Shown piece after piece: positions 10,520-40,598 of a stretch of DNA of 64,000 nt. Where the stretch lies: NCBI GenBank assembly GCA_037976565.1, contig CP137680.1, positions 27,484,873 to 27,548,872 on the forward strand, written 5' to 3'. Below the pieces are notes generated by a model, which searched no databases, had not been told where the DNA came from, and saw only the letters and a program-made list of their open reading frames with translations. Both the position numbers and the translations under genes were made by a program. The stretch's first letter is position 1. Every line of letters begins with the position of its first letter. Source of the stretch: Mesocentrotus franciscanus. Its lineage: Eukaryota; Echinodermata; Echinoidea; Camarodonta; Strongylocentrotidae.

Positions 10520-10589
10520 CTGGGATATGGGGGCTGTTGTTTGTGTTTAAAGTGTCAGGCTTCCCTCTAGCTTAACAATGGTGTCTCAC
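10520..10589 (-). other. Candidate 70-nt retained/alternative intron, copy A
   Basis: Begins GTGAGA and ends CCCAG after a C-rich stretch. If it is retained, translation stops at TAG (10567) with a short tail ending ETPLLS. If removed, the phase-1 join continues into the tail exon. The same donor and acceptor occur at 24913-24982 (B) and 39364-39433 (C). An alternative acceptor (GTGCAG, then ATGAAAAC) lies 27 nt downstream and keeps the same phase. Confidence 0.5.
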
Positions 10590-11754
10590 GTTCACCAGAA
10601 TCTTCATTTGGTACTGATGCATTCCTTGAGGCCAATGCAATACCGGAAGTACCAGACTCATTCCTTTTGGGTGTGCAAAACAACCAGACTCCACCCACTG
10701 CAATGGTGATTAACCACAGTGAGAGAAATAACAACGTTAACACCAAGTAAGGATTATATGCATTAGGAGTGGTTGCTGGATCTTCAGAATTATATTTATT
10801 GTTGTCTCCAGTAAGTCTCGAGATTATGGTAAAACCAATGGTACCATTGTTGGTCTGGTTGTCATCTCCTTTGGTTCGACACACCACCACTTTCCCGACA
10901 TCTCGTTCAGATATATCCCGTATGAGCAGTGTTCGCCCTCCGTCACGTGTCCATGAACGATTCTCAATATCTTCTTCTATTCCATCTGAACTGTAAAAAC
11001 GCCAATCGACATCCGATTTATCTTCACATTTGATAATGATGTCATTTCCTTCATCAATGTATTGCACCTTTATAATATTTGGGTAGATGCAAGATCGCGT
11101 TACGTCAATGTTTAGAAAATATGCATTGCAGGAAGCGTTATGAACGTTGTTGAAATCGTCAAAGTAGAGAGTTTTAGCTTTGATACTTTGAGATGACCCG
11201 GGGGCATCATCAATTCCATTTTGTCCAATTCCTTTTAATGTCCAAATGACATCGAGTTCACCCGAGTTTACTTCACATGATAATGTCATACTGCCCACTC
11301 CATTTTCATCACTACGCGGGGATGTAACAATGCACTTGGGTACGATATTAGATGGGTCAATTGATTTTACCAAATATTCCTGCAGAATATCATTCCCCAC
11401 TTTACACTGAAAATCATGCTCCTCTTCACCGGATGGTGATAATGAAAGAATTGAAGTTTCATTTCTTCGGGTCGCTTCAATATGATCAAATTTACGAGAA
11501 AAAATGATCACAATATTATCAGCACTAGTAAATTGACACCGATCATTCTGACAGGTGTAGATATGAGCGAAAAAGTTTTGTCCGATATGATACAACCAAG
11601 TAACATCTTCAGTTGAGTTTAAATAACAAGTCAAATTTACTTGCTGGCCAATTAACGCATGTTTTTCAATTATTCCGCCTTGTCCTTCTGCATACAACCA
11701 AGACTGGATCCCAAACAATAGGCCTACAAACGAACGAAATGAGATAGTAGCCAT
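10567..11754 (-). CDS. Ig-superfamily single-pass receptor, copy A
   Basis: 395-codon uninterrupted frame: signal peptide (1-24), three Ig-like domains, TM segment (about 336-359) and a short tail ending ETPLLS. Domain 1 has C43, W53 and C117 plus an extra pair C68/C73. Domain 2 has C160, W171 and C209. Domain 3 has C243, W251 and C292 with a D-V-G before the last Cys. Several N-glycosylation sequons (NLT, NST, NET, NAS, NRS). No ITIM is present in this frame. The start is the ATG before MATISF, conserved in all copies. Likely a cell-surface recognition protein; the ligand is unknown. A whole ectodomain plus TM in one exon is unusual for animal Ig receptors and may reflect a retrocopy origin. 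Confidence 0.85.
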   Translation of the reverse strand: MATISFRSFVGLLFGIQSWLYAEGQGGIIEKHALIGQQVNLTCYLNSTEDVTWLYHIGQNFFAHIYTCQNDRCQFTSADNIVIIFSRKFDHIEATRRNETSILSLSPSGEEEHDFQCKVGNDILQEYLVKSIDPSNIVPKCIVTSPRSDENGVGSMTLSCEVNSGELDVIWTLKGIGQNGIDDAPGSSQSIKAKTLYFDDFNNVHNASCNAYFLNIDVTRSCIYPNIIKVQYIDEGNDIIIKCEDKSDVDWRFYSSDGIEEDIENRSWTRDGGRTLLIRDISERDVGKVVVCRTKGDDNQTNNGTIGFTIISRLTGDNNKYNSEDPATTPNAYNPYLVLTLLFLSLWLITIAVGGVWLFCTPKRNESGTSGIALASRNASVPNEDSGERETPLLS

Positions 11755-12830
11755 GGTTCTCAGATATGATATTCAGATGCCCAATGGCACAATGCGCATT
11801 ACATTATATACACCGTGCAGAAGCCCCTCCGAATAAGTAGCACATTGCGATCGAATGTGCTCTATGAGAATAAAGCAAGTTCATCACATATAGGAGCGCA
11901 TAGATGGCTCTGATTCCACATACAATGGCGTGCACCGTGTTGAGGTTTGGTATTCATCCATTCGTAGATGGCGTACGCAGTCTGAAGTTGGAAGGTTTCA
12001 TGGAGTCCGAGTATGCTTTTGAATATCTGAAATTAAAAGGGGCTGCATAACCAAAATGAAAATGGTTTCTTTGTTATTGATTTTTCCATTTTGGGGTTAA
12101 ATATTGCAGCCTGAGGGCAGAATTTTTACAATGAAAATATATATATGAAAATGTATACATAGGCCTAGTAATCACAGACATGTGAGAGAGGGAATTGGGA
12201 CCGAGAGAGAGAGAGAGAGAGAGGTGGAAGGAGGGAGAGAGAGATTAAAGAAGAGAGAGGAAGAGAGATGGAAGGAGAGAAAGGGATTACATGAGAGGGA
12301 GAGAGAGAGAGAGAGAGAGATAGACAGACAGAGAAAGGAGAGATTGTTTAAATAACAAGCATCGGGTTTATATGAATGAATGATGAATGAATGAATGAAT
12401 GAATGATGATTTTTTTTTTACCTGACTGCTAAGAAAGCATAAATGCTTGTTAGTAAGCAACCCCCTCCTAAAGTGCTTTTGCAGTTTTTTACAGTAAGTT
12501 TCATTCACTTGATGAATGTTAAAAAGAAAAAGACAATGACAAAAAAGTGACGTTGTGAACAAAAAGATTGACATTTCTCTATCAACATAATGAAGGGTTG
12601 GAGGGCTGTCCTTTCATTTAAAACATATTTTAGAATTGATGTATGGACTTGTCAACTACAGGAAAAGGCTTATCAACATTTCCCTCTATTTTGTTCTGCT
12701 ACAAGTCATGTAATATTTGGGCATTAACCTTTGTTAGGTATTTCCTCAAATTCCCTCTGGCATTTTAATTTACGTCAAATGAGGAATTTGTCGAGATCTG
12801 TTGCATTTCTTATTAATACTACTTAAAGGT
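11755..12830. other. Receptor upstream region, unit A
   Basis: Shared with B (26148-27180) and C (40599-41480). It contains the presumed promoter, GA microsatellites (12209-12230 and 12300-12320) and an (ATGA)n stretch near 12373-12405 found only in A. Short frames here are not consistent between copies. Confidence 0.5.
11804..11810 (-). promoter_or_regulatory. Candidate TATA box, copy A
   Basis: TATATAA on the minus strand about 50 bp before the receptor ATG. The aligned site is degraded in B (TGTAAAATG, around 26205) and C (GGTTAATAATG, around 40693), so the copies could differ in promoter strength. Confidence 0.3.
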
Positions 12831-14280
12831 AATACAAAGTTTTGGTATGGGGTCATGAATTTGGTTCAAATGAACATATTGGAAACATATGCGATTTTAC
12901 AATATTCAATGATCGTTGTCGCGGTTGAAATCGAGTCTAATACTTTTGTGTGTTTTTTCAAATTTTGTGGACCCTCCGACAGGCCATTTTATTGAAAATC
13001 AATCTCTGAATAACATATTTGAATACATGTACAAATGAATATAATATTATATTATACTTTAGAATAATATAAACATAATGAATATCAAACATAATAAGCG
13101 ATTACTAAAAGCGTAGCATATTGATAATAATAATATGATAATAATAATATTGTTTACAATATTACTGTACAAACAGAACATAGATTTAAAAATATATTTA
13201 AAAAAACAATGCAACATCATGACTTAAAATTCTTCGGGAAATTCAATATAATAATACTAAACGATCAAAATCCTCTCAAAATTTATCAATTTTTTACCGA
13301 ATTTGTCAGTTTTGTTAGCAAGTATGCTAACTTGCCTCTCATTTGTGTAACTATTACTGATATATTGTTTTATTGTCTGGAAGGACGGTATAGACTTTTG
13401 TATTCGAGAAAAATATAATTGTTGTTTAGTCCAAATTATCATTTCGTTTCTCAATGAAACCTAACAAAACATTTATTAAAGACCGTTTTATTCTACAGCG
13501 TGTTACAGAGTTTAACCAGTCAGTCAAACGACTCTAAATCAATTTGGTCACGTTACACGAGTAAACAAAGTACACCATGTCTTCTTCTTCTCTTCCACAA
13601 AGGGAAAAGTTCTTATTTAGAATTATTTTGATTTTCACAAGATCTTTATTCAAATATAGTATTCTATTTAAAAGTCTGTACTGAAAGTACCGAACTGTTG
13701 CATGCATTGTACAGCGAAACATAACCCTGAAATAATAATGCATATATTTATCATCAAATAATATACCATCAGCATGCCATCTATTACATACTATATTCAA
13801 ATGATCGTCCTTTTTTTAAACATGGTTTGATATCTATGTCTACATCCTTTTTTATCTTTCAACAAGCATGAAATAATTATATGCAGGGCATAATGTGATG
13901 AAATTGTAAATAATAAACTATTTATGTTGTATAGCTCCCTCTCATGACTGATATTACTTTAGCTTTAAAACAATATTTCTTGACTACAATCGACCAATTT
14001 GCTATTCCCGTTTGGAAATTATATATCAGAAAGGCATATTCTGAGATTTTCATGGTCGTAGCTACCATGGAATGGCCTTCGGTGCTATTTGAAATATTTA
14101 AAATTTACCGGGAGCACCGGTAAATTTTGATTATTTAATTTCTCGAAAGCAGAAGTGTTTTAGGAGCTAAAATTTTTAGTGCTAATAATAAATCCACAGG
14201 GGCACCCAAATATATCAAAATTTTAAAGAATTATTATCCATCCAATTTTCAAAATTTCCCAAAACTTTGCATTACCTTTA
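12831..14280. other. Unit A-specific AT-rich region
   Basis: Not present in B or C, which instead continue into the Cys/His-rich gene region. Very AT-rich, with one recognisable LINE scrap (13534-13800, minus). Confidence 0.6.
13534..13800 (-). pseudogene. LINE polyprotein fragment
   Basis: The minus-strand frame includes VRYFQYRLLNRILYLNKDL and KIKI, then FSLCGREEEDMVYFVYSC. This is the pattern FQ(Y/F)(R/K)...RI...N..L.K..I....C..C...E....H.F..C typical of the C-terminal zinc-knuckle region of L1/Tx1-like non-LTR retrotransposons, and it resembles the region at 56930-57090. About 88 codons; no catalytic domain. Confidence 0.6.
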
Positions 14281-14284
14281 ACAT

Positions 14285-14324
14285 CCTCATGTTTTCTACT
14301 TTTTCCCATCAGATCAAACATAGA
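14285..14324 (+). pseudogene. Leftover exon boundary of the Cys/His-rich gene, unit A
   Basis: TTTTCTACTTTTTCCCATCAG (with its AG) followed by ATCAAACATAGAGGG matches the acceptor and first bases of the exon at 27186-27220 in B. The ATG of B reads ATA here. An inverted dispersed repeat (14325-14475) replaces the rest. Confidence 0.55.
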
Positions 14325-14475
14325 GGGATGAATAAAATGGGCACACAGTAAGATGAAATTCCTTGAAGGCTTGTGCACCTTTATATCACGATAGCTGTGC
14401 CAAAGTCGGGGTGATTGCAGGGCCGTCAAGGGGAACGTTACCCTGTCATTATCATTAATGTTATCATAAATTATT
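14325..14475 (-). repeat. Inverted dispersed AGCGCTT-type repeat
   Basis: Reverse complement matches 28140-28290 (words CAATCACCCCGACTTTGGCA and AAGCCTTCAAGGAATTTCAT), i.e. a piece found in direct orientation downstream of the Cys/His-rich gene in B and C. Confidence 0.6.
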
Positions 14476-14483
14476 GTTCTTAA

Positions 14484-15056
14484 AGGGAAATCCAACCCAA
14501 ATAGTCAACGACTCTAAAAGAAAGCAGAAAATCAGAGAAGCAAACTGATGAAAGTTTCAATTAAATCTGACTAAATATAAGAAAACTATAAATTTTTTGA
14601 AAGTTGTAATCACTATACGTATGGGCACTTCACATTGGCTGAAGTGGTAATGTCAATATGATATAGTGCCGGACTACTTTCCCATCTGTTCCAACATATA
14701 AAATGACTAAAACTTAAATTTTGTATAAAAGTTCATTGCTCAGGAGGGTCTATTCTTTATAGAGGGCCTATAATAATATGCTTTATATCTACAATATATT
14801 TTGAGTAGTGCCCCAAGGGAGAAGGAACTAACTAGAAAAACATAAATTAATGATATGATAATGGGAGAGTTATCCACGTCCTACGTCACAATCCACTGAC
14901 CAAACTACCAATTTTAAATTCGCATAGACTTAGTGATCTCATATTTCAAACATTCGTAACTTCCTTACTATTGGTTCGATTCATTTCAAGCTTTTGCCAT
15001 TCTGTTTTCTGTTATTTTTCATACAAATCAACTTATTACAAGGGTTGGATTGCCCT
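14484..15056. mobile_element. TTAA-target MITE at the A/B boundary
   Basis: 573 bp, flanked by TTAA (14480-14483 and 15057-15060). Terminal inverted repeats are AGGGAAATCCAACCC on the left and AGGGCAATCCAACCC read from the right. No coding capacity. A family different from the MITE at 2333. It ends exactly where homology of unit B begins. Confidence 0.8.
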
Positions 15057-15547
15057 TTAAGTTAAAGGTAGTGTCTAATGAATGACTATGGTTTTTCATT
15101 TCTTCACATTACAGAAATTGTATTTGATGTAATTAAAAAACCTGAACTGCCTTTTTCTTACTGAAGGTCTTTGGGAATATCAAAAATTTAGAAATATTAA
15201 AAAGTATTTTTCAGTGGAAATTTAAGCTTATTTTCCTTAGAAATGAGGACAGGGTTAGGGTCAACTTTTACATTCTCTCTCCATTAGATGGACTTTAAAC
15301 TATTTATTCATTGCTGTAAGTTTTGTCAATATCTTGTTGGGACAAAAAATATCTTGTAATCTTGTCTGTGAACTTTTAAAAATATGGAAATATCATTTTT
15401 TTCTTTCTTATTCCCTGTTTATTTATTTGGTGATGGTCGACACTGATTTATGTAAAGAATAAGAAATAGTGCATGCAATGTATAAGTAGCTTATTTTGTG
15501 TATATTTTTGGTTAAAGTTACAAATGTATATAGATATCTTTTAATTA

Positions 15548-15735
15548 GGGGAGTTGGCTCAGTCGGTAAAGCGTCTGCCTGTCGAACCCAAGATCATGGG
15601 TTCGAATTCAACCCAGACAGATGACTGAAGCCTGCTTTGTGTGTTAACGTGCCCCTCCCCTGTTTCATGGATGCAGGCTATATTACAGCGGAAAAGACTG
15701 CATCCCTCAGATAGGACGTTATGAATTGTACTTTG
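15548..15735 (+). mobile_element. tRNA-derived SINE, unit B
   Basis: Orthologous by position to the SINE at 601. Both promoter boxes match the internal pol III consensus. Substitutions and small indels separate it from the A copy. Confidence 0.8.
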
Positions 15736-15949
15736 CCATAATAGAAATATGATAGTGCATTACCATTGATTGTAAAGCTATGATAGATTGAAGGAGATGT
15801 GATTGATTTAACCTGTTGAGGAAGATTTCATTTTGCTATCAATGACACTCATTTCATGTTTGTCCAGATTCTGTCCCTTTTGATATATTATTTTTCTTCA
15901 GTCATCTTTGTCCCCCTCCCTGACACGCATCCCACACAGAACGTGACAT

Positions 15950-16190
15950 CTCCCTAATCGCACGATCCCTGACAAAAATGAAAGTTTCAGCGTTGAGGGT
16001 GTGCTGTACAAATTCAATAACACAAACATTGGCCGAGTATTCAAGAGCAACCACTTTCAAAATGTATTTCACTACAATATCATGGGCCGTACCTGGATTG
16101 CTTAATTTAGCAGTCTGCTAGGACCCGGAGTAATTGAGCTTTTGTGTGTCCAGCAGGAGAGTACAAATGGACATTGGGATACACAGCCAA
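15950..16190 (-). pseudogene. Decayed unrecognised coding remnant, unit B (shortened)
   Basis: Counterpart of 974-1413 with about 220 bp missing between 15988 and 16005, leaving only the ends of the remnant. Confidence 0.3.
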
Positions 16191-17110
16191 TATTGGTAGA
16201 AATATTTTACCATTCCTAGACTACAATCTAAGCAAATATTTCAGTCTGAACATTGTCCAAATATTTTGACAGGGATAGTTTAGTCCTTCTGTATCAGAAT
16301 GAAAATGTTTAGAAATTTGACAAAAATCTGCGCCCTCCTCTTGATACATGATATTGTCTGCTTGTTGAGAGCCTTTAATAAGGGCAGTAGATCACATTCT
16401 TTCCCTGATCTGGCGCTCAACAAATGATAAATTATGTTGTGTTGGTCAATGAATGACAATGCTACAGACAGCATTATAAGAACTATTTGAAAGCCTGCTC
16501 CTTGGTATTTCTTACCCCGAAGTCTTATGTATTATGTATGATCACCAAGTATGTAATGAATGAAGGCTACATTGTAAGAATGTTGGAAGGACAATTCATT
16601 TCTATGCTCTATATTTGAAATCTGTATCTATTTATGCAATACTGCAATGAAACATCCTTATATGTAGATATTTTGTTTGGAATGGTGTAGCCGGGGGGTA
16701 TTGAATAAAGTAGATATTTATATTTTGATGCAACGTTGCATTTCTTTCAATATAACCAAAGTAATGTTCTTATTACTTCATTCTTTCAAAACAAACTCAA
16801 GTTGTTGTGACAAAAGTGCCCATCAATAATTTCTGTTAATGGACATATGTACAATATGCTAGCATATATGCATCTCTTGTAGTATTAGTCCTTTCAGATT
16901 ATAATATATGCATTTGATATTGGGTATTCCTTCTTTCTGAGATTGATTATTAAAAATGCTGAAAACTAAAGATAAAATTATTCTTTTGGTACTGATTGTG
17001 TTTTTTGTTTCACTGACAATGAGAGTATGCTTGTTATCAGTGGTGTCACAAGGGGGGCACTTGAGTTGGGAGGGGGCTTGGCCGAGGTGAGGATGGGGCT
17101 CTGGTGTTAA

Positions 17111-17605
17111 AGTGACTCGGTAACATTGTTGAAAGTTGATAAAAAAACTGCGTAATTTTGTATGAAATGTTACTTATTATATTCCTTCTACTGTACAATC
17201 CCTCTAACGTGCAAAAAATCCTGAATTTTTTTTAAAACCACAATTATATCTATGGTTTTCTTTGAAGGCGTCACTGTGCAACACCCTCTAACAGTATATT
17301 CTCCCAACCTTTTTTTAATTTTCCCAACCGTTTTTCGATGAAGAAATTACATAAGACAGGCATTTAAAAATCTTTCAACACTTAAATATCTGGAATGGTA
17401 TATAGAGCCAATTTATTGCTTTGTGACGAATTACATTCACCTAAAATGTAATTAAATTGTAATAATATAGTTGGGAGAATTGAGGAATCGATCAGATCAG
17501 TTTTTCCCAATTTGTATCATCAATAATGGTCTGTTTTCACTCAAACATCTAGCATTGAAGCATTTGCAGCATTTTCTCTCATCTGAACAATGTTACCAAG
17601 TCCCT
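17111..17605. mobile_element. TTAA-target MITE, unit B
   Basis: Copy of the element at 2333, flanked by TTAA at 17107-17110 and 17606-17609. It was duplicated with the unit rather than inserted independently. Confidence 0.85.
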
Positions 17606-17612
17606 TTAATAT

Positions 17613-18375
17613 GTAGATGAAAAGTAATAAGAGAATAAGACGTGGGGTATTTTCTTTACATTTCGCCCCCCCCCCTTCCCTTTCTTTCACTATTTGTCTC
17701 TTTTCCCAATGTTTTCCTTCAATTCAATATGGCCTGGGGAGGGTAGGGGGCATCTGGGTTTTCCTTCTCCCCCACTTTTTTTCCCTAAATTTCTCTTTAA
17801 CCTCTTTCTTTCTTTTCTTCTCATAAACTCCTGCTCAACCCCACTTCTTTCTTCTTGCTCTTTCTATCTCAGATTTTCTTTCTCTCTCACATATTCTTTT
17901 TATTATTTTCCATTTCTAATTTTTTGCCCTTTCATTCATCCTTTCTTTCATTGTGTCCTCCTCCCCCTCTCACTCTCTCTCTCTCTCTCTCTCTCTCTCA
18001 ATCCAATGTAATACTCACCATTTCTCTATCTTTTTTGTTGTGTTGCTTTTCTCAATCAAAATAACGGGGGAGGGCCTTTTTCTTGTTCTTTCTAGCTCAG
18101 ATTGTTTTGTATCTCACCCATTCCTGTAAATTGTTTTCAATTTCTCCCCTTTGCCTCTTCTTTCTTCTGCCATATTCCTTTCTTTCTGAGATCCCCCACT
18201 CTCTGTCTCCCCCCTCTCTCAATCTAATGTACCACTTTTCTCTATCTTGTTTTGTTTCTTTCTCCCCCCCCCCCCTCCGCCCTTCTGATTCAACAAACAC
18301 ACAATAATACAAAATAACAAATCTATAAGGATTTATAAACAGTGCTATGAAATACAAAAATAAAAAATAAAAAAG
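17613..18375. repeat. Polypyrimidine tract, unit B
   Basis: Counterpart of 2837-3616. The CT run at 17970-17998 differs in length from A. Confidence 0.8.
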
Positions 18376-18928
18376 GATGAGTTTCGAGTTTAGTGCAGCA
18401 GACAACCCACGCACCATGATTACGGTGTATTGGGTTTAAGTCCGTTAGCTTCAGTCTCAAACGATATCCACTACACCACGGCTCACCCCGACGTAACATA
18501 CCGTATTTTTACTATTTATCACACACAAAACATTGCACCACCATCATTATTCAGTAGGCCCTACTTTGCCAGAGAGGGCGATAAACACATAAAAGTAATA
18601 ATTCGATGGCAAAAATACAAGTAACACCATAAGTCTAGTCACCATTTATATCATCATAGTTCTTATACTGTTTTAATTGTTCTCTTGTTTTTTAATGGTA
18701 TTATGGTATTGAGTTAAAGCAGATGTCTCACCTCCTTGGTACAAGTTATTTTCACAATTTATTACAGACTCTGAAGTATTGCACCATCAAAATCAGTGAA
18801 CTGAAGCGTTCAGTGATCGACATATGACTCATGATAATTATTCTATTTATCGCCGTTGAGGGCGACACAAAATATAAAAACAGTCTGTGGAAAAAAAAGT
18901 TAGAAAAGCAAAAAGAAATCAATATATA

Positions 18929-18985
<57 letters not shown>

Positions 18986-19213
18986 TAAATGTGAGAGGAG
19001 ACCGATTCACTATCATTCTTATCATATTTCCTATACTGATTTATAGTTTCTCTTGTTTTTATGGATTTGATATTAGGTTTTACTAAAATTAAAAATATAT
19101 ATATATATATAAACCTTGAAGTGGGGTAGAGGGGAGGGGGAGGGGCTAAATCAATAATACGTGAATGAAGAATCATCTTGCTTCAAAGTTTTAAAAGAAA
19201 TATGGTACCCATC

Positions 19214-19249
<36 letters not shown>

Positions 19250-20542
19250 CACCTCTCCCTCTCCCTGCCCCCCACCCCTCTCTCTCTCTCTCTCTCAATC
19301 TAGCGTGTGTTTTTGGGTTTTACAGACGTGTATCAATCAGATATGATTATTTACGTCTGGGGACCGACCTTTAACGTCACCATCCGAAAGACGCTATCGT
19401 ACCACTTTTCTCTATCTTGTTTTGTTTCTTTCTCCCCCGCCCGCCCTCTTGATTAAACAAACAAACAAAATAATACAACATAACAAATTTATAAGCAATT
19501 ATAAATATTCCGATGAAATGAAAAAATAAAAAATAAAAAGGATGAATTTCGAGTTAAGTGTAGCAGACAACCCACGCACCATGATTATGGCCGTGTATTG
19601 GGTTTAAGTCCGTTAGCTTCAGTCTCAAACGATATCCACTACACCACGGCTCACCCCGACAAAACACACCATAATTTCACTATTTATCACACACAAAATA
19701 TTGCACCACCATCGTTATTCAGTACTTTGCCAGAGAGGGCGATAAACACATAAAAGTAATAATTCGGTGGCAAAAATACAAGTAACACTATAGAAGTCTA
19801 ACAACCAGGCCTGCTAACAACCATTATCATCATAGTTCTTATACTGTTTTAATTGTTCTCTTGTTTTTAACGGTAGTATGTTATTGGGTTAAAGTCTGGT
19901 TGCTTCAGTCTCAAAAGATATCCACTACACCACGGCACACCCCGACAAAGTACAAGTTATTTTCACAATTTATTACAGACTGAACTATTGCACCATCAAA
20001 ATCAGTGAACTGAAGCGTTCAGTGATGGAAATATGACTCATGATAATTATTCTATTTATCGCCGTTGAGGGCGACACACAATATAAAAACAGTCTGTGAA
20101 AAAAAGGTTAGAAAAGCAAAAAGAAATCAATATATAGATATGTGAGAAGAAACCGATTCACTATTATTCTTATCATATTTCCTATACTGATTCAAAGTTT
20201 TTCAAGTTTTTATAGTTTCGATATTAGGTTTTTTTTATTTAAAACTTGAAGTGGGGGTAGAGGAAGGGGAGGGGCTAAATCAATAATACATGCATGAACG
20301 AAGAATCATCATGCTTCGAAGTTTTAAATGAAATATGGTACCTCTCTCTCTCTCTCTCTCAGCTTTATTGATCTCTCTGTTTCTGAAAGTCTCTCTAATA
20401 CTAAAATATTTTCTATGAGGAACAATACGTTTTTCAAAGAAAAAAATGTCAAAAGGATTAGTGTCGAGTTCAGTGTACTAGACAACCCCCCATTATTATG
20501 GTATCGGGTTTAGATTATATCGTTTGAGACTGAAGCTAACGG
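18376..20542. repeat. Direct repeats with tRNA-like segment, unit B
   Basis: Near-identical counterpart of 3617-5792, with a (TA)n run at 18929-18990. Confidence 0.65.
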
Positions 20543-20689: not shown

Positions 20690-20868
20690 TCCAGTGGCGG
20701 ATCCAGCCCCCTCCCCTAGCAAAAAAACACGTTATGTTTACCTTTTTTGTTAATAAAATTAGTGCTCACTACCCCCTCCACCAAGAGCGAAATATCGGGG
20801 TGGGGCGATTTTTCAAATTTTCGAGGGCAAAAAAGAAAGAAAAACAAAATTGCTCATTACCCCTCCCC

Positions 20869-24334: not shown

Positions 24335-24504
24335 CTAGGAGCACAATTTTTTTTTTTTTGCCTCCGAAAATTGAATTTTTTTTTTAACCACCCCCTTGAG
24401 CGCCAGGGGAGGGGGCCCATCTTCTTTTTTTTAACAATAAAGGTTGTTTTTACCTGTTTTTTTTCTAGGGGAGGGGGCCCCCCCCTGGATCCGCCACTGG
24501 ATTA
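24335..24504. mobile_element. MITE fragment disrupting receptor tail, unit B
   Basis: Replaces the sequence found in A (about 9760-10100) and C. The right end is the reverse complement of CAGTGGCGGATCCAGGGGGG. The interior has long T runs and GCCTCCGAAAATTGAA, also found near 52893. It cuts the receptor tail frame. Confidence 0.65.
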
Positions 24505-24912
24505 GGGGGCCACTTTCCTTGGAAGTGCTTACCAACCTCGGTATATTCAACAATATCAGGGGGCCACTTTCCTTAAAAGTGCTTACCAACCTCATCATAT
24601 TCACCAATATCAGGAGGTCCCTCTCCTTGGAAGTGATTACCAACCTCGGCATATTCTCCAAGATCATAAGAGCATATGTAGCGCCCTTGTTGGGTTCCCC
24701 GACTGTTTCATAGCATTGCCAATGACTGCTATGGGGATGGTTCAACGATGCTGGATTGGCATCAGGCTGTTTCCATCTTGCTATCGAAGCCCTCGGTAAG
24801 GAATTCACTGGCGACGGGGATAACTTCTCCAGGGTGAAGTACAAATGACTCCCATTGTTGCTTTGGCGATTCCTATTGTTTTCATCTGCACTTTTTACCT
24901 CGGGCGCGAAGA
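24431..24912 (-). CDS. Putative tail exon of Ig receptor, copy B (3' end replaced by transposon)
   Basis: Same structure as 10014-10519: donor GTGAGA at 24982, acceptor ending 24913 (70 nt) or 27 nt further on. YFTL, YETV and YALM are kept, as are three 18-residue repeats in a different order of variants. After the last GPLI the frame runs into transposon sequence (QWRIQGGAPSPRKK), because a MITE with the terminus CAGTGGCGGATCCAG has replaced the native C-terminus. Confidence 0.55.
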
Positions 24913-24959
24913 CTGGGATATGGACGCTGTTGTTTGTGTTTAAAGTGTCAGGCTTCCCT

Positions 24960-26147
24960 CTAGCTTAACAATGGTGTCTCACGTTCACCAGAATCTTCAT
25001 TTGGTACTGATGCATTCCTTGAGGCCAATGCAATACCGGAAGTACCAGACTCATTCCTTTTGGGTGTGCAAAACAACCAGACTCCACCCACTGCAATGGT
25101 GATTAACCACAGTGAGAGAAATAACAACGTTAACACCAAGTAAGGACTATGAGCACTAGGAGTGGGTGCTGGATCTTCAGAATTTGATTTATTGTTGTCT
25201 CCGGAAATTTTAGAGATTATGGTGAAACCAATGGTACCATTGTTAGTCTTGCCATCTCCTTTGGTTCGACACACCACTACTTTCCCGACATCTTGTTCAG
25301 ATATATCCTGTATCAGCAGTGTTCGCCCTCCGTCACGTATCCATGAACGATTCTCAATATCTTCTTCTATTCCATCTGAACTGTAAAAACGCCAATGATC
25401 GACATCCGATTCATCTTCACATTTGATAATGATGTCATTTCCTTCATCAATGTATTGCACCTTTATGATATTTGGGTAGATGCAAGATCGCGTTATATCA
25501 ATGTTTGGAAAATAAGCATTGCAGGAAGCGTTATGAACGTTGTTGAAATCGTCAAAGTAGAGAGTTTTAGCTTTGATACTTCGAGATGACCGGGGGGAAT
25601 CATCAGAAACGTTTAGTCCAATTCCTTTCAATGTCAAATTGACATCGAGTTCACCCGAGTTTACTTCACATGATAATGTCATACTGCCGACTCCGTTTTC
25701 ATCACTACGCCGGGGTGTAACACTACAATTGGAGGCAAGTTTATTTGGGTCAATCGGTTTCATCCTGAATGTTCGCATAAGAACATTCCCTAAACTGCAT
25801 TTAAAATTTTGCTCATTTTCCTCGGATGGTGTTAGTGAAAGAACTGAGGTATCGGCACTTCGCGTTGCTTGAATATTGAATGCAATGTTACTCAAAGAGA
25901 TTCCAGCCATAGTAGGTGTGCACTGACCAATCTGATTATCCTGGCAGGTGTATATAGAGATGTACGATGTGCCATCTAAACTACAGCGCCAAGTAACATC
26001 TTCAGTCGAGTTTAAATAACATGTCAGATTAACTTGCTGGCCAATCAACCCATGTTTTTCAATTATTCCGCCTTGTCCTTCTGCATACAACCAAGACTGG
26101 ATCCCAAGCAAAAGGCCTAACAACAAACGAAATGAGATAGTAGCCAT
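24960..26147 (-). CDS. Ig-superfamily single-pass receptor, copy B
   Basis: 395 codons, intact, same architecture as copy A: signal peptide, three Ig-like domains, TM, and a tail ending ETPLLS. Domain 1 (residues about 54-145) is highly different from A: an extra Cys at 55, the extra loop pair C68/C76, and a CSLGNVLMRTFRMKPID strand region. The domain 2 Trp is replaced by Leu (VNLTLKG). From about residue 146 onward it is nearly identical to A. Intact frame and conserved cysteines suggest a working gene; function beyond surface recognition is not evident. Confidence 0.85.
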   Translation of the reverse strand: MATISFRLLLGLLLGIQSWLYAEGQGGIIEKHGLIGQQVNLTCYLNSTEDVTWRCSLDGTSYISIYTCQDNQIGQCTPTMAGISLSNIAFNIQATRSADTSVLSLTPSEENEQNFKCSLGNVLMRTFRMKPIDPNKLASNCSVTPRRSDENGVGSMTLSCEVNSGELDVNLTLKGIGLNVSDDSPRSSRSIKAKTLYFDDFNNVHNASCNAYFPNIDITRSCIYPNIIKVQYIDEGNDIIIKCEDESDVDHWRFYSSDGIEEDIENRSWIRDGGRTLLIQDISEQDVGKVVVCRTKGDGKTNNGTIGFTIISKISGDNNKSNSEDPAPTPSAHSPYLVLTLLFLSLWLITIAVGGVWLFCTPKRNESGTSGIALASRNASVPNEDSGERETPLLS

Positions 26148-28690: not shown

Positions 28691-28700
28691 ATAATAGTAT

Positions 28701-30400: not shown

Positions 30401-30589
30401 TTGCCATTATAGAAATATGATTGTACGTTACCATTGATTGTAAAGCTATGATAGATCGAAGGAGATATGATTGATTTAACCTGTTGAGGAAGATTTCATT
30501 TTGCTATAACACTCATTTCATGTTTGTCCAGATTCTATCCCTTTTGATATATATTCTTTTCTTTAGTCATCTCTGTCCTCCTCCATTCC

Positions 30590-31030
30590 ACACATCCCAC
30601 ACAGAGTGTGACGACGTCACTAATCACCCCATCCCTGAATAAATTTAAGGAATATCACCGTTTTAGCATTGAAGGTGTGTTATTTTCTCAGGGGATGGGG
30701 CGCACGACACATAAACAGTTCAGGCAGTGGACTAAGTTCTCGTAGACTCCAGCCTGAGTATACTCATGTACCATCCTTAATTTCAGAGAGATATAATCAG
30801 TTGTAGGTCTATGTTCAATACAGGGTCTCGATCTGAGTGATTAACATCTGTACAAATTCAATAACACAAACATTGGCCGAGTATTCAAGAGCAACCACTT
30901 TCAAAATGTATTTCACTACAATATCATGGGCCGTACCTGGATTGCTTAATTTAGCAGTCTGCTAGGACCCGGAGTAATTGAGCTTTTGTGTGTCCAGCAG
31001 GAGAGTACAAATGGACATTGGGATACACAG
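30590..31030 (-). pseudogene. Decayed unrecognised coding remnant, unit C
   Basis: Counterpart of 974-1413. The segment at 30850-31030 is almost identical to B 16005-16190, including an in-frame stop after LNYSGS. The segment at 30590-30850 follows D. Confidence 0.35.
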
Positions 31031-31971
31031 CCAATATTGGTAGAAATATTTTACCATTCCTAGACTACAATCTAAGCAAATATTTCAGTCTGAACATTGT
31101 CCAAATATTTTGACAGGGATAGTTTAGTCCTTCTGTATCAGAATGAAAATGTTTAGAAATTTGACAACAATCTGCGCCCTCCGACTTGATACATGATATC
31201 ATCTGGTGGTTTAGAGCCATTAATAAGGGCAGTAACTCTCATTCTTTTACAGTGTTAATTCCCTGATCTGGCATTCAACAAATGATACGTTGGTTTGGTC
31301 AATGAATGACAATTCTACAGACAGACAGCATTATAAGAACTATTTGAAAGCCTGCTCCTTGGTATTTCTTTTACCAAAGTCTTATGTATTATGTATGATC
31401 ACCATGTATGTGTAATGAATGAAGGTTACATTGTAAGAATGTTGTAGAGACAATTCATTTCTATGCTTTTTATTTGAAATCTGTATCTATTTATGCAATA
31501 CTGCAATGAAACATCCTTATATGTAGATATTTTGTTTGGAATGGTGTAGCCGGGGGTATTGAATAAAGTAGATATTTATATTTTGATGCAACGATGCATT
31601 TCTTTCAATAAAACCAAAGTAATGTTTTTATTACTTCATTCTTTCAAAACGAAATCATGTTGTTGTGACAAAAGTGCCAATCAATAATTTTGTTTAATGG
31701 ACATAATATGTACAATATGCTAGCATATATGCATCTCTTGTAGTATTAGTCCTTTCAGATTATAATATATGCATTTGATATTGGGTATTCCTTCTTTCTG
31801 AGATTGATTATTAAAAATGCTGAAAACTAAAGATAAAATTATTCTTTTGGTACTGATTGTGTTTTTTGTTTCACTGACAATGAGAGTATGCTTGTTATCA
31901 GTGGTGTCACAAGGGGGGCACTTGAGTTGGGAGGGGGCTTGGCCGAGGTGAGGATGGGGCTCTGGTGTTAA

Positions 31972-32468
31972 AGTGACTCGGTAACATTGTTGAAAGTTGA
32001 TAAAAAAACTGCGTAATTTTGTATGAAATGTTACTTATTATATTCCTTCTACTGTACAATCCCTCTAACATGCAAACAAATCCTGATTTTTTTTTAAACC
32101 ACAATGATATCTATGGTTTTCTTTGAAGGCGTCACTGTGCAACACCCTCTAACAGTATATTCTGCCAACTTTTTTTAATTTTCGCAACCGTTATTCCAGG
32201 AAAAAATTACATAAGACAGGCTTTTAAAAATCTTTCAACACTTAAATATCTGGAATGGTATATAGAGCTAATTCATTGCTTTGTGACGAATTACATTCAC
32301 CTAAAATGTAATTAAATTGTAATATACTTGGGAGAATCGAGGAATCGATCAGATCAGTTTTTCCCAATTTGTATCATCAATAATGGTCTGTTTTCACTCA
32401 AACAACTAGCATTGAAGTCACTAACTTTGCAGCATTTTCTCTCATCTGAACAATGTTACCAAGTTCCT
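31972..32468. mobile_element. TTAA-target MITE, unit C
   Basis: Copy of the element at 2333, flanked by TTAA at 31968-31971 and 32469-32472. Confidence 0.85.
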
Positions 32469-32475
32469 TTAATAT

Positions 32476-33240
32476 GTAGATGAAAAGTACTAAGAGAATA
32501 AGACGTGGGGTATTTTCTTACATTTCGCCCCCCTTCCCTTTCTTTCACTATTTGTCTCTTTTCCCAATGTTTTCCTTCAACTCGATATGGCCGGGGGAGG
32601 GTAGGGGGCATCTGGGTTTTCCTTCTCCCCCACTTTTTTCCCTAATTTTCTCTTTAACCTCTTTATTTCTTTTCTTCTCATAAACTCCACCTGCTCAACC
32701 CCACTTCTTTCTTCTTGCTCTTTCTATCTCAGATTTTCTTTCTCTCTCACATATTCTTTTTATTATTTTCCATTTCTAATTTTTTGCCCTTTCATTCATC
32801 CTTTCTTTCATTGTGTCCTCCTCCCCCTCTCTCTCTCTCTCTCTCTCTCTTTCTCAATCCAATGTAATACTCACCATTTCTCTATCTTTTTTGTTGTGTT
32901 GCTTTTCTCAATCAAAATAACGGGGGAGGGCCTTTTTCTTGTTCTTTCTAGCTCATATTGTTTTGTATCTCACCCATTCCTGTAAATTGTTTTCAATTTC
33001 TCCCCTTTGCCTCTTCTTTCTTCTGCCATATTCCTTTCTTTCTGAAACCCCCCTCCCCTTCTCTCTCTCTGTCCCCCTCTCTCAATCTAATGTACCACTT
33101 TTCTCTATCTTGTTTTGTTTCTTTCTTCCCCCCTCCGTCCTCCGCCCTCCTGATTTAACAAACAAACAAAATAATACAAAATAACAAATCTATAAGGAAT
33201 TATAAACAGTCCTATGAAATACAAAAATAAAAAATAAAAA
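32476..33240. repeat. Polypyrimidine tract, unit C
   Basis: Counterpart of 2837-3616, with a CT run at 32825-32850. Confidence 0.8.
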
Positions 33241-35130
33241 AGGATGAGTTTCAAGTTCAGTGCAGCAGACAACCCACGCACCATGATTATGGTGTATTGG
33301 GTTTAAGTCCGTTAGCTTCAGTCTCAAACGATATCCACTACACCACGGCTCACCCCGACAAAACACACCGTAATTTTACTATTTATCACACACAAAACAT
33401 TGCACCACCATCATTATTCAGTAGGCCCTACTTTGCCAGAGAGGGCGATAAACACATAAAAGTAATGATTCGATGGCAAAATACAAGTAACACCATAAGT
33501 CTAGTCACCATTTATATCATCATAGTTCTTATACTGTTTTAATTGTTCTCTTGTTTTTTTAATGGTATTATGGTATTGAGTTAAAGCAGATATCTCACCT
33601 CCTTGGTACAAGTTATTTTCACAATTTATTACAGACTGAACTATTGCACCATCAAAATCAGTGAACTGAAGCGTTCAGTGAGCTAAATATGACTCATGAT
33701 AATTATTCTATTTATCGCCATTGAGGGCGACACACAATATAAAAACAGTCTGTAGAAAAAAAAGTTAGAAAAGCAAAAAGAAATCAATATTTATATATAT
33801 GTGGGAGGAGACCGATTCACTATCATTTTTATAATATTTCCTATACTGATTTATATTTTCTCTTGTTTTTATGGTTTTGAGATTAGGTTCTAATACAAAA
33901 TTTAAAAAACACCTTGAAGTGGGGGTAGAGGGGAGGGGGGGAGGGGGCTAAATCAATAATACATGAACGAAGAATTATCATGAATCAAAGTTTTAAAAAA
34001 ATATGGTCCCCATCTCTCTCATTCTGTCTCTCCCTCTCCCTCCCCCCCTCTCTCTCTCCCTTCTCCCTCTCTCTCTCTCTCTCAATCTATGTACCACTTT
34101 TCTCTATCTTGTTTTGTTTCTTTCTTCCCCCCCCCCCCTCCGCCCTCCTGATTCAACAAACCAAACAAAATAATACAACATAACAAATTTATAAGGAATT
34201 ATAAATATTCCGATGAAATGAAAAAATAAAAAATAAAAAGGATGAGTTTCGAGTTTAGCGTAGCAGACAACCCACGCACCATGATTATGGTGTATTGGGT
34301 TTAAGTCCGTTAGCTTCAGTCTCAAACGATATCCACTACACCACGGCTGGCACCCCGACAAAACACACCATAATTTCACTATTTATCACACAAAAAATAT
34401 TGCACCACCATCGTTATTCAGTACTTTGCCAGAGAGGGCGATAAACACATAAAAGTAATAATTCGATGGCAAAAATACAAGTAACACTATAGAAGTCTAT
34501 CAACCAGGCCTGCTAACAACCATTATCATCATGGTTCTTATACTGTTTTAATTGTTCTCTTGTTTTTTAACGGTAGTATGTTATATTGGGTTAAAGTCTG
34601 GTTGATTCAGTCTCAAAAGATATCCACTAAACCACGGCACACCCCGACAAAGTACAAGTTATTTTCACAATTTATTACAGACCGAACTATTGCACCATCA
34701 AAATCGGTGAACTGAAGCGTTCAGTGATGGAAATATGACTCATGATAATTATTCTATTTATCGCCGTTGAGGGCGACACACAATATAAAAACAGTCTGTG
34801 GAAAAAGGTTAGAAAAGCAAAAAAGAAATCAATATGTAGATAAATATGTGAGAAGAAACCGATTCACTATCATTCTTATCATTTTTCCTATACTGATTCA
34901 AAGTTTTTAAGTTTTTATAGTTTCGATATTAGGTTTTTTTTTAAAACTTGAAGTGGGGGTAGAGGGGAGGGGGTGGGGGGCTAAATCAATAATACATGCA
35001 TGAACGAAGAATCATCATGCTTCAAAGTTTTAAATGAAATATGGTACCTCTCTCTCTCTCTCTCAGCTTTATTGATCTCTCTGTTTCTGAAAGTCTCTCT
35101 AATACTAAAATATTTTCTATGAGGAACAAA
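33241..35130. repeat. Direct repeats with tRNA-like segment, unit C
   Basis: Counterpart of 3617-5792 with monomer starts at 33241 and about 34240. The (TA)n run is nearly absent, and the third partial repeat is cut at 35130. Confidence 0.65.
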
Positions 35131-35426
35131 ATCATTTGATTCATGAGCCTTCCAGGATATCCTGAGCATCCTCCTCCAACACTACATTTCGAAAGTGTGG
35201 ATTTTCGTTCTAAATGCTGCTCCAAGAGCCCACGTCTCTGATCCATATGTAGCAATTGGAAAGACCAAAGCATTCATCATATGAATCTTGGTGTTCCTTG
35301 AGATCCCTCTGTCTTTCCAGATGTCGGTAAAGCTTATGGCGGATGATCTAGCCATGGCGAGACGTCGTCTTATTTCTTGTGAGCTTCCACCACCATCCAC
35401 AATCAGAGAGCCCAGAAGTTGAAAGT
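35131..35426 (-). pseudogene. LINE reverse-transcriptase 3' fragment, unit C (shortened)
   Basis: Counterpart of 6118-6535 carrying the same TAG. A deletion has removed its 3' end, the transposon end fragment and the remnant tail exon, so it joins directly to the CT repeat segment at 35130. Confidence 0.75.
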
Positions 35427-36208
35427 GTTGACTACTTCTGATAATTGCCCCTGTTCCGTTCTAAAAAGTGCCCTTTTTCTGGTGAGTGCCGCTTATCAGG
35501 TGCCCCATTTCCCCCAGATAATTCCCCTTATTACTTTGAAACGTGCTCCTTTTCTTTAAATGCCCCCCTTTCTAATCAACATAAGATGTAAGACTATCAA
35601 GAGCAACTTTCTCTTTAATTTCACCCAAAGCTCGCTCGCTACGCTCGCTACCATTTTAAGTTGATATAATTTTTATGTCTAATTAAAAGTCTTTTCATTC
35701 TTTAATGAGATTGTGATTCAAACCCCAACAGGATTGTGTTCTCCTCTTTATAAGATGCAATTTTTCGCACTGCGACTTCACAAATCTTAAATATTTTGCT
35801 CGCTCGCTTCGCCCGCCTGCAAATTAATATTCAGACCATCACACCCAACTGCAAGATATGATGCTAAAGCAGTATCTTGGACCATGTAAAGAGAGAAACA
35901 AATGTTGAAATCATCCCTTATAATGTAATCACAATGTAGGGATATACCAATGTATAACAATTATGTATTTTCACTTTGAGGTTTTCCTTTGTAGGTACCC
36001 CCTTTTTCCCCAGAAAGTGCCCTTTTGATGCTCCGCAGCCCCTGTATATAGTACGTATGGCCACATGATAGTATTCGAGGAAAGTTTTCACCATTTCGTG
36101 CAAAGGAATGGTAACAGACATTGCACTGTTACCCTCGTTGGTATTTAGAGTCTTTAGAGGGCATTAACTCTTTGTAAAATAATAACAATAATAATAATAA
36201 TACTCAGT

Positions 36209-36370
36209 TTTTATATAGCGCTTATTACAATCACTATAAGCGCTTCCAAACTTGGAGATTATTACCCCGGCTTTAGCTGTGCTACCATTACGGCGCTCTA
36301 GCATTTCAAAGAATTAATTTCTGCCAGGTACCCATTTACATCACCTGGGTTGAGTGTGTAATCAAGTTAT
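36209..36370 (+). repeat. Dispersed AGCGCTT repeat, unit C
   Basis: Positional counterpart of 7343-7510, with small changes at the AGCGCTT word. Confidence 0.65.
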
Positions 36371-36557
36371 TGTACTTTTGGCTCTAAGCAGAGGACACGA
36401 CATGAATTGAATTGATTTGTGTTGGTATTTATTCAAAAAATGAACATGGCAGCCCAGGGGCTGAATCATATGGAGTTTACAAGGTAAAATGACAAAGACA
36501 AAATGTTTTACAAATTTATACATATATCATGATAATATATTAATATGAAGGAGAGAA

Positions 36558-36601
36558 ATAGAGAGAGAGAGAGGAAGAGAGAGAGAGAGAGAGAGAGAGA
36601 A
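36558..36601. repeat. GA microsatellite, unit C
   Basis: Short interrupted (GA)n at the locus corresponding to 7686 in A. Confidence 0.9.
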
Positions 36602-38857
36602 ATTGAGAGGCGGGACAGAAAAGGAGAGAACGAGAAACAATGATATAGAGGCAGAAGTGTGACAATCTAGATGAAGAGATTATAAATTACATAAGAAATG
36701 AGGAGATTGATTAACATTCTAAAATTACGGTAAAATGTAAATAATTGTAGTAAGCGGAGGTAAAGAGTAGATGCAATAGAGGGGAATAGCGTGAAGGGGA
36801 CAGAAGGACAAAGAGCTGGTAAGAGGGAGGGAGACAGATAGAGAAGAGATCGATATTTATTATATATAGAGAGAAAGAGGGGGAGGGGAGGAAGGAGGAG
36901 AAGAGGAATACAAAAGAAAATGCATGATGATAAGATACATAAATACATTGTCATATTATAAAGTGAGAACAAAATTATCGGGGATAATAATTTATGGTAA
37001 AATTGTTAATTTTGAGTAAGGATATAAATGCTCAAAAAATGCTCTAGCGTGATATATAAATTTAAATTAAACCATTTGAAATATCGTAAGATAAACGTAA
37101 GAAAGATGTAACAATCATAAAGATTATATACATGTAAAAAGCAGCATCAGCAACAACAACAATGAATATACATGTAAATATAAAAAGCATCTTTCACTAT
37201 TTAAAGAGGAATATTGCACTTGGGAGTTTGCGTGTGAAAGTTCATTTACATTAACGATTTTATTTTAGCATAATTTACACAGCATGCCTATAGCTTGATT
37301 TACATTAATTATGAAGTTTTAATCATAAGCTACCAAAGTTGGGTATCTTATTGTATACGCTGCATAACGGAAATGTTGGTGGGTTTAACAAAAATATAAA
37401 CACACACATAAAATAGATATGCTGGATCAAATTAAAAACTAAAATACGAAGAAAAGTTTTTAAAATTCTAATAATCTCCATGTTGCTACTTTAAAGTGCA
37501 TTTTTCATACTAACACGGACAATTGATAAATCAAGTATAATGTGGAAAGTGAATCAACATGTTAGGGCACTGAATATAGTATTTTTCGTAAAACAGAAAA
37601 TTGTGACAATTACAAATCATTTGGTATGCTTGCTGAGCCTCAATCAATTGACTAATTATTTACATGATTTGAGAGAATATGACTTTAAGTTATGTATATT
37701 TAGCTTTCCACTATTTTGGAATATCACATTCCTCCCAAATTCAAGAAATGTTTTCTTCTTCGTTTTCATCCTCTTTACATCCTCCTTCTCCTAAAATTGG
37801 ATTCAAAGCGATTTTAAAATATTTCCTGTTGCTATACAAACACGTGTCCAGTTTAGCTTACTCATTGGTCAACAAGTTTACAATAGCTTGATCTGTGAAC
37901 TTCATTTCATCAAACCGAGTTTAATATTTTAAAACTGATTCTGTTGTTTTTTCTTTCCATAACTCGATTTTTGTAGTCGCTTGTCACATTAAAGAAGGAA
38001 ACATTCGGAACTAGGAAACCTTGCTCTACCAAATTTACATCACACCTGACGATCCCTTTAATCATTTAACCGATGAGGATGAGTTGGTAAATTATAAATC
38101 CCAACAGGTACCAATTTAGGTCACCTAGCTTAGCCAAGAGGTGCACTAGATACATGTAGGTATTCGAACTCTAAACATATTGATTGAAAATTAGATGAAA
38201 TAATTATTGAAGTCCTATTATCGATCCCTGTGTACGGCCAACATTTACAGACTAATTTTACACTTGGGGGGGGGGGGGTCTTTCAATAACATCATAAGTC
38301 TTCCCACTGCCATAATGGAAGGCAATAAAAAGGCTCTCATATAATATGTACATGTAGAGACAGTAGAGATAATGCCATTAAAGATTTGTAACGAAAAGGC
38401 TCATAATTAGCTCCTAAGTCTGTATCGTCAAAGACACGCACGTTCTTTCTTTATTTCTATAATCATTAAACCATTTAACCTCTGTCATAGTGGTTAAAAA
38501 TAGAGACAATCGTAAGGGTACAAATAAAAAGCTGTTTTATTTAAAATTACTAGTTTAACAGAAAAATGGCCAGTTCTGGCTTATGGTTTTTTTGCATAAT
38601 AGTTAGACGTTGCATGCTGAAAGGAACGAACATGAAGAGAAACAAGTGGCCACCTGAAAAACTCCAAATACCAATGTGAATTTTAAAAAATTAATATACA
38701 AAAATTATTATTTAAACGAAAATTGGTTATATTTCCTTCATATGGCGATTTCTGCCAAGACTGTTTCCCCGTTTCAGCAAGTTCAGTCGATCCATAAAAA
38801 CATGGGAACAATTTGTATACAGATGTCCAGAAATCCCATTTTGTATAGGATTTTCAC

Positions 38858-39363
38858 CTATGCTTTATTTACCTTGCTATAAAGTCTAGAAATGTCATTC
38901 CCCTTTACCCTTTTTCCAGACTTTTTAAGGGATGGAAGGACGATCTGATAGATCAGGGGGCCACTTTCCTTAAAAGTGCTTACCAACCTCAGCATATTCA
39001 CCAATATCAGGAGGTCCCTCTCCTTGGAAGTGCTTACCAACCTCGGCATATTCACCACTATCAGAAGGTCCCTCTCCTTGGAAGTGATTACCAACCTCAG
39101 CATATTGCCCAAGATCATAAGAGCATATGTAGCGCCCTTGTTGGATTCCCTGACTGTTTCATAGCCTTGCCAATGACTGCTATGGGGATGGTTCAACGAT
39201 GCTGGATTGGCATCAGGCTGTTTCCATCTTGCTATCGAAGCCCTCGGTAAGGAATTCACTGGCGACGAGGATAACTTCTCCAGGGTGAAGTACAAATGAC
39301 TCCCATTGTTGCTTTGGCGATTCCGATTGTTTTCATCTGCACTGTTTACCTCGGGCGCGAAGA
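38858..39363 (-). CDS. Putative tail exon of Ig receptor, copy C
   Basis: Same structure as 10014-10519: intron 39364-39433 (70 nt). Tyr motifs are conserved. The three 18-residue repeats carry a different mix (two with SKERDLLI, one with KESGPLI). It ends with the same lysine-rich stretch as A (PSLKKSGKRVKG). Confidence 0.6.
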
Positions 39364-39410
39364 CTGGGATATGGGGGCTGTTGTTTGTGTTTAAAGTGTC
39401 AGGATTCCCT

Positions 39411-40598
39411 CTAGCTTAACAATGGTGTCTCACGTTCACCAGAATCGTCATTTGGTACTGATGCATTCCTTGAGGCCAATGCAATACCGGAAGTACCAGA
39501 CTGATTCCTTTTGGTTCTACACCCCAACAAGACTCCAAACACTGCTGTTGTGATTAACCACAATGAGAGAAATAACAACGTTAACACCAAGTAAGTACTA
39601 TGGGCACTAGGAGTGGGTGCTGGATCTTCAGAATTTGAGTAATTGTTGTCTCCGGACATTTTAGAGATTATGGTGAAACCAATGGTTCCTTTGTTATTCG
39701 GGTTGTCATCTCCTTTGGTTAGACACATCACCACTTTCCCGACATCTCGTTCAGATATTTCCTGTATCAGCAGTTTTCGCCCTCCGTCTCGAATCCATGA
39801 ACGATTCTCAATATCTTCTTCTATTCCATCTGAACTGTAGAAACGCCAGTGATCGACATCGGATTCATCGTCACATTCGATAATGATGTCATTTCCTTCA
39901 TCAATGTATTGCAACTTTATGATATTTTGGTAGATGCAAGATCGCGTTATATCGATGTTTGGAAAATATGCATTGCAGGAAGCGTTATGAACGTTGTTGA
40001 TATCGTCAAAGTAGAGAGTTCTAGCTTTGATGCTTCGAAATGACCCGGGGGCATCATCAATTCCATTTAGTCCTATTCCTTTTAATGTCAAAGTGACATC
40101 AAGTTCACCCGAGTTTACTTCACATGATAATGTCATACTTCCGACTCCATTTTCATCACTACGCGGGGATCTAACAGTGCAATTGGGCATAATTTTACTA
40201 GAGTCAATTGATTTTACCGAATATTTCTGCGGAATATTATCCCCTAACTTACACTTAAAATCATGCTCCTTTTCATCGAATAGTGTTAGTGAAAGGACTG
40301 AGGTATCGGTACTTCGCGTTGCTTGAAAATTAAATTCATTGTTACTCAAAAGCAATCCAGCTTCAGTAAGTGCACATTGACCATTCTGATTATCCTGGCA
40401 GGTGTATATAGAGATGTATGCGTCATCTAACCCATAAAGCCAAGTAACATCTTCAGTCGAGTTTAAATAACATGTCAGATTTACTTGCTGGCCAATCAAC
40501 GCATGTTTTTCAGTCATTCTGCCTTGTCCTCCTGCATACAACAAAGACTGGATCCCACACAATAGGCCTAAAAACGAACGAAATGAGATAGTAGCCAT
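39411..40598 (-). CDS. Ig-superfamily single-pass receptor, copy C
   Basis: 395 codons from the ATG at 40598 (MATISF), the start conserved in A and B. An in-frame ATG 24 codons upstream (40670) exists only here and would put a non-hydrophobic stretch before the signal peptide, so it is not chosen. Same three-Ig, TM and short-tail layout. The domain 1 centre (YISIYTCQDNQ, then QATRSTDTSVLSL) resembles B, but its end (HDFKCKLG, then VKSID) resembles A. The membrane region is slightly changed (ITTAVFGVLLGC) and the tail has NDDSGERETPLLS. The domain 2 Trp is Leu. Confidence 0.85.
   Translation of the reverse strand: MATISFRSFLGLLCGIQSLLYAGGQGRMTEKHALIGQQVNLTCYLNSTEDVTWLYGLDDAYISIYTCQDNQNGQCALTEAGLLLSNNEFNFQATRSTDTSVLSLTLFDEKEHDFKCKLGDNIPQKYSVKSIDSSKIMPNCTVRSPRSDENGVGSMTLSCEVNSGELDVTLTLKGIGLNGIDDAPGSFRSIKARTLYFDDINNVHNASCNAYFPNIDITRSCIYQNIIKLQYIDEGNDIIIECDDESDVDHWRFYSSDGIEEDIENRSWIRDGGRKLLIQEISERDVGKVVMCLTKGDDNPNNKGTIGFTIISKMSGDNNYSNSEDPAPTPSAHSTYLVLTLLFLSLWLITTAVFGVLLGCRTKRNQSGTSGIALASRNASVPNDDSGERETPLLS

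Follow-up and report, generated by a model that had tools for sequence, protein, structure and literature searches.

Three receptor genes arrayed in tandem in the window, i.e. the whole 64,000-nucleotide stretch of Mesocentrotus franciscanus DNA analysed here, share near-identical backbones, but each carries within its membrane-distal domain (domain 1) a segment that looks older than the sequence around it and is under weaker constraint. The silent divergence of domain 1 is raised, its tree conflicts with that of the neighbouring domains, and the closest pair of copies changes within it. We consider it probable that old domain-1 lineages have been exchanged between paralogues onto young backbones and kept diverse by selection on recognition.

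The original prediction of three intact 395-codon receptors about 14.4 kb apart was borne out, with open reading frames (ORFs) on the minus strand at all three sites:

10567..11754, minus strand: receptor copy 1, 395 codons in a single exon, with a signal peptide, three Ig-type domains, a transmembrane (TM) segment and a tyrosine-free tail
10678..10752, minus strand: predicted TM helix of copy 1, modelled at aa 335-359
24960..26147, minus strand: receptor copy 2, architecture as copy 1
39411..40598, minus strand: receptor copy 3, architecture as copy 1

The receptor starts are spaced by 14,393 and 14,451 bases. Note that the listed ORF of copy 3 opens with a GTG at 40670, its ATG lying at 40598. 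Each copy runs without introns from the signal peptide through the three Ig-type domains and the TM helix to a tail of 34-35 residues. The receptors display the Ig fold and core cysteine pair of the immunoglobulin superfamily (IgSF), and C43, C68, C73 and C117 are retained in all three copies, as had been proposed for the core cysteines. They are best explained as type I, three-Ig-domain cell-surface proteins in a germline array. Long stretches of the 14.4-kb units align at 91-96%, with poorer stretches of which the lowest, upstream of copies 2 and 3, aligns at 79%. On the right, unit-like sequence gives way to a satellite-like array near 46 kb; the window cuts the receptor array on the left, and further copies may therefore exist. 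A tblastn search of the window for extra domain-1 copies or donor pseudogenes gave a best match of E 0.16 outside the three genes.

We compared the copies along the gene and its flanks, base differences being given for the pairs 1-2/1-3/2-3. They amount to 6.9/6.9/7.5% at aa 1-53, rise to 47.8/48.4/18.2% at aa 54-107, within the V-type domain 1, and to 34.2/19.2/32.5% at aa 108-147, and return to 6.8/6.8/7.5% at aa 148-240, 7.4/11.7/7.8% at aa 241-344 and 0/9.8/9.8% at aa 345-395. The 357 bases after the stop differ by 2.2/2.2/3.9% and the 5' flank, over 758 aligned columns, by 9.9/17.4/17.3%. Domain 1 is thus strongly different on near-identical receptors (18-48% at aa 54-147 versus 0-12% in the rest of the coding sequence), as originally predicted, and lies far above both noncoding flanks. 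Two details of that prediction needed correction: flanks differing by a few bases per 100 are found on the 3' side (2-4%) but not on the 5' side (10-17%), and the variable part covers most of domain 1 but not residues 26-53 (strands A and B and the BC loop, up to W53), which are 86-96% identical among the three copies. The variable parts are:

11314..11595, minus strand: variable part of domain 1 of copy 1, aa 54-147, type A
25707..25988, minus strand: variable part of domain 1 of copy 2, aa 54-147, of which aa 120-147 are nearest P0007 and P0003 (relatives introduced below)
40161..40439, minus strand: variable part of domain 1 of copy 3, aa 54-146, shorter by one residue

Silent and replacement divergence were obtained by Nei-Gojobori counting in two classes of codons, residues 54-147 (domain 1) and elsewhere in the coding sequence. 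For the three pairs, dS is 0.70/0.47/0.32 in domain 1 versus 0.12/0.16/0.13 elsewhere, i.e. 2.4-5.9 times higher, an excess that reshuffling codons between the two classes reached in 0, 1 and 14 of 2000 trials. The ratio ω is 0.87/1.06/0.90 in domain 1 (95% intervals 0.52-1.45, 0.62-1.85 and 0.47-1.81, all containing 1) and 0.39/0.49/0.55 elsewhere, with intervals overlapping those of domain 1; these ratios are rough, because copy 1 is nearly saturated against the others at silent sites of aa 54-93. Replacement-to-silent counts are 92:28 in domain 1 versus 31:22 in the rest for copies 1-2 (p 0.018), 79:21 versus 52:29 for copies 1-3 (p 0.031) and 52:16 versus 48:24 for copies 2-3 (p 0.26). Since its silent divergence is raised as well and ω is not clearly above 1, domain 1 looks older than the backbone; positive selection on it is possible.

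A protein search returned nine homologues and a profile search 14 (P0001-P0014), including the same nine; all are single ORFs with the source label 'ena', and they were compared as amino acids. In the family alignment of the nine relatives and the three window copies, mean column entropy is 1.65 bits at residues 54-93, 0.99 at 94-117 and 1.05 at 118-147, and 0.70 and 0.59 bits further on (170-232 and 233-300). No part of the ectodomain is more conserved than the blocks on either side of the variable part; their positions in copy 1 are:

11596..11655, minus strand: conserved block preceding the variable part, aa 34-53, mean entropy 0.44 bits, putative homology arm
11248..11313, minus strand: conserved block following the variable part, aa 148-169, mean entropy 0.36 bits, putative homology arm

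For five of the 14 relatives, the longest contig given measures 12,171 bases; if this is one contig, its genes are much more closely spaced than those of the window. Among viral_contigs and genome_contigs, 64 and 119 pattern-matching stretches were found and none was confirmed as a relative. Sequence searches of solved structures gave one chance match each (E 0.31 and 0.091) and no relative, and those of named families gave no match to the receptors.

The domain-1 tree (12 rows) groups copy 1 with P0001, P0006, P0007 and P0009 (support 98/98), whereas the tree of domains 2-3 (11 rows, P0009 being excluded as too short) unites copies 1-3 in a clade (support 100/98); the remaining branches of both trees are mostly without support. 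Constraining domain 1 to unite copies 1-3 was rejected (p-AU 0.00033), as was constraining domains 2-3 to unite copy 1, P0001, P0006 and P0007 (p-AU 0.00026), the first constraint being set by the finding and the second group, copy 1 with its type A relatives, having been picked after the tree was seen. Within domain 1, the two-against-one sites show copies 2 and 3 agreeing at 58 of 79 for aa 54-107 and copies 1 and 3 at 26 of 44 for aa 108-147, a change of closest pair with chi-square 34.3 (p <0.000001); over the rest of the coding sequence, copies 1 and 2 agree at 49 of 100. Copy 2 is 70% identical to copy 3 at aa 54-107, and at aa 120-147 its identity is 64% to P0007, 54% to P0003 and 32% to copy 3. 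A scan of the coding sequence puts the single best switch point at aa 188 (reached by 0 of 1000 shuffles), off the borders of the variable part, so the pattern is more complex than one cut there. Correlating distances between segments gave weak values everywhere and, as domains 2 and 3 of the relatives are themselves uncorrelated (r -0.49), says nothing specific on domain 1.

In the exchange that we favour, gene conversion or unequal crossing-over would move domain-1 lineages, whole or partly, between paralogues, and the conserved blocks at aa 34-53 and 148-169 would plausibly guide the process. Backbone and flanks would be young and the domain-1 lineages old, maintained by selection for varied recognition. 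The V-type domain 1 would do the recognising, its binding to a ligand most likely involving the C, C', C'' and D region (residues 54-93). The receptors may serve in immunity or allorecognition, and we would presume an immune rather than an allorecognition use. Several points weigh against this reading: its part on the relatives is built on amino acids, the type A group was selected on its own tree, the best single switch falls away from the variable-part border, and folding alone may account for the conserved blocks. Moreover, the same tree conflict would come from old paralogues whose signal peptide, domains 2-3, tail and flanks were homogenised by gene conversion, domain 1 having escaped or been selectively kept apart with no exchange. 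This alternative, possible but in our view rather unlikely, would also yield the raised silent divergence, and the identity of copies 1 and 2 at aa 345-395, which nearly persists past the stop, resembles recent conversion. However, homogenisation must spare about 280 bases inside the long, closely aligning stretches of the 14.4-kb units and, alone, does not explain why the closest pair changes within domain 1; we prefer exchange because of this change and of the closeness of the whole units.

The original prediction had instead seen in domain 1 the mark of diversifying selection, i.e. recent duplicates diverging there by point changes under positive selection. The part that stands is a hypervariable, membrane-distal domain of V type, as expected for a recognition surface, with replacement changes enriched in two of three pairs and higher point values of ω (0.87-1.06 versus 0.39-0.55). 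The part that does not is point change in young duplicates, which we judge improbable: silent sites are raised too, ω, at about 0.9-1.1, is not established above 1, and the trees conflict, domain 1 of copy 1 grouping with other relatives. More improbable still are chimeric joins or mixed haplotypes, a concern in a repetitive locus judged from its assembled sequence; as the three ORFs are intact and the type A domain 1 of copy 1 recurs in ORFs of other contigs, an assembly or frameshift artefact is unlikely to have produced the differences in domain 1.

We also inspected the gene surroundings, where a minisatellite lies about 300-460 bases 3' of each gene:

10108..10262, minus strand: 54-bp minisatellite, 2.9 copies, about 305-460 bases downstream of the copy 1 stop
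24504..24656, minus strand: 54-bp minisatellite, 2.8 copies, downstream of the copy 2 stop
38952..39117, minus strand: 54-bp minisatellite, 3.1 copies, downstream of the copy 3 stop

GA runs are found about 450-580 bases upstream of each ATG, a proximity that means little as 31 such runs are spread over the whole window. A scan for V(D)J-type recombination signals, using the consensus with 12- and 23-base spacers (up to 3 mismatches), gave no site and no sign of a rearranging system, a result of little power given chance expectations of only 0.50 and 0.62. All three receptor genes are complete in the DNA.

The tails differ across the family. None of the three window copies has a tyrosine after the membrane; in eight of the 14 relatives the tail is of another kind and bears a TPxY motif. 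In P0002 the tail is 219 residues long and contains the form Y..[LIM]x8Y..[LIM] three times (one strict and two relaxed ITAM patterns); 0 of 5000 shuffles gave three. Searched in other proteins, this tail matched P0002, P0005 and P0008 only, the latter two over 19% of its length. Near the window genes, the search for tyrosine-motif tail exons gave nothing convincing, the best matches being the genes' own TM and tail. These sequences suggest that the family has signalling and non-signalling forms, although a single ORF with an ITAM tail lends the signalling members little support: P0002, with its ITAM-like motifs, could signal, and the short-tailed window copies could be partner, adaptor-dependent or decoy forms.

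Arthropod Dscam also limits variation to part of an Ig domain, made there by alternative exons, whereas the variable part in the window lies inside one continuous exon per gene. Membership of the Hydractinia Alr family calls for homology to Alr1/Alr2, a place in the allorecognition complex and a role in which shared alleles decide between fusion and rejection. The window array would work like germline-diversified invertebrate arrays (Hydractinia Alr, snail FREPs, sea urchin 185/333), a likeness of kind and not of demonstrated membership. Alr genes form a cluster and encode single-pass IgSF proteins with V-set and I-set domains, highly polymorphic in their ectodomains (PMC11067881, PMC11999971), and in clustering, single-pass IgSF structure and diverse ectodomains they are like the window array by description, not sequence; their overall identity is low (PMC11067881), unlike the near-identical backbones in 14.4-kb units here. 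The sea urchin Sp185/333 (SpTransformer) genes are small and clustered, with mosaic diversity, flanking simple repeats and a proposed role of gene conversion (PMC1988830, PMC5103432), which the repeats are proposed to limit or promote (PMC5103432). Clustering, mosaic diversity and nearby repeats are shared with the window array; Sp185/333 genes, however, have two exons (PMC1988830), whereas each of the three window receptors is encoded whole, signal peptide included, by one ORF, a single exon with Ig domains and TM. Biomphalaria FREPs are likewise diversified IgSF recognition proteins, varied by point mutation and recombination (PMC11999971), but carry a fibrinogen domain, for which the three window proteins gave no match up to E 1. 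Oyster CgIgIT2, which combines Ig domains, a TM and an ITAM in an invertebrate receptor (PMC11999971), resembles P0002 by description; it has five Ig domains, against three in the window receptors, whose tails are tyrosine-free. KIR and other vertebrate paired receptors join near-identical ligand-binding parts to tails that signal or are of other kinds (PMC12310515); this family may likewise place similar ectodomains on tails with and without tyrosine motifs, as one ORF (P0002) suggests, but here domain 1 is the divergent part. The literature gave analogues and, among the matches listed, nothing recognised as this receptor family, subscription papers falling mostly outside its scope.

More tentatively, and with considerable doubt, the family may represent a cassette-exchange receptor system working without RAG or alternative splicing, in which most of the V domain of an intronless Ig receptor (C to G strand), set between two near-invariant blocks, would be swapped among genes in one or two modules, perhaps even somatically. 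Variability would sit on C-C'-C''-D, where C68 and C73 would make up a further conserved cysteine pair; loops corresponding to CDR1 and CDR3 would stay near-constant, and ITAM-tailed and tail-less members would share the repertoire.

To our knowledge, V(D)J recombination is absent from most animals, and clear cases of germline-built varied recognition repertoires are few. Overall, anatomy, silent-site ages and conflicting trees within one array point to receptors having traded part of an Ig domain. Such exchange would create new specificities while leaving the fold and the membrane part undisturbed, and the extra cysteine pair, together with the variable C'-C''-D region, would put the contact surface elsewhere than in antibodies or T-cell receptors.

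Downstream of the three intact receptor genes (copies 1, 2 and 3, each 395 codons in a single exon on the minus strand), we observed an AATAAA motif 541 bases 3′ of the stop codon in copies 1 and 3 (copy 1 region, 10566-9966). In copy 2, AATAAA was not found in the first 600 bases 3′ of the stop (24959-24359), and the sequence departs from that of the other copies ~400-450 bases beyond the stop. The features recorded on this side of the genes, together with a dispersed repeat, are the following:

10017-10571, 24434-24964 and 38861-39415, receptor strand: stop-to-stop open frames of 177-185 codons, one 3′ of each receptor gene
10108-10262 (copy 1), 24504-24656 (copy 2) and 38952-39117 (copy 3): 54-bp minisatellite, ~3 copies, downstream of the receptor stop
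3442-3942, 4651-5126, 18214-18699 and 33077-33566, among other positions: ~480-base dispersed repeat

A Pfam scan of the open frame at 10017-10571, the only one of the three scanned, returned no matches.

The dispersed repeat occurs many times, both in the ~14.4-Kbp units surrounding the receptor copies and in a satellite-like array of ~860-base repeats (46452-51919) that lies at the right border of these units. Short palindrome-like units of ~20 bases (consensus GATAAACACTGTTTATCGGC) are arrayed at 49043-49731. Further right lie a LINE-type retrotransposon remnant (56146-57381), with a zf-RVT match in its second ORF, and a segment (62008-62600) displaying a 79% self-alignment to its own reverse complement.
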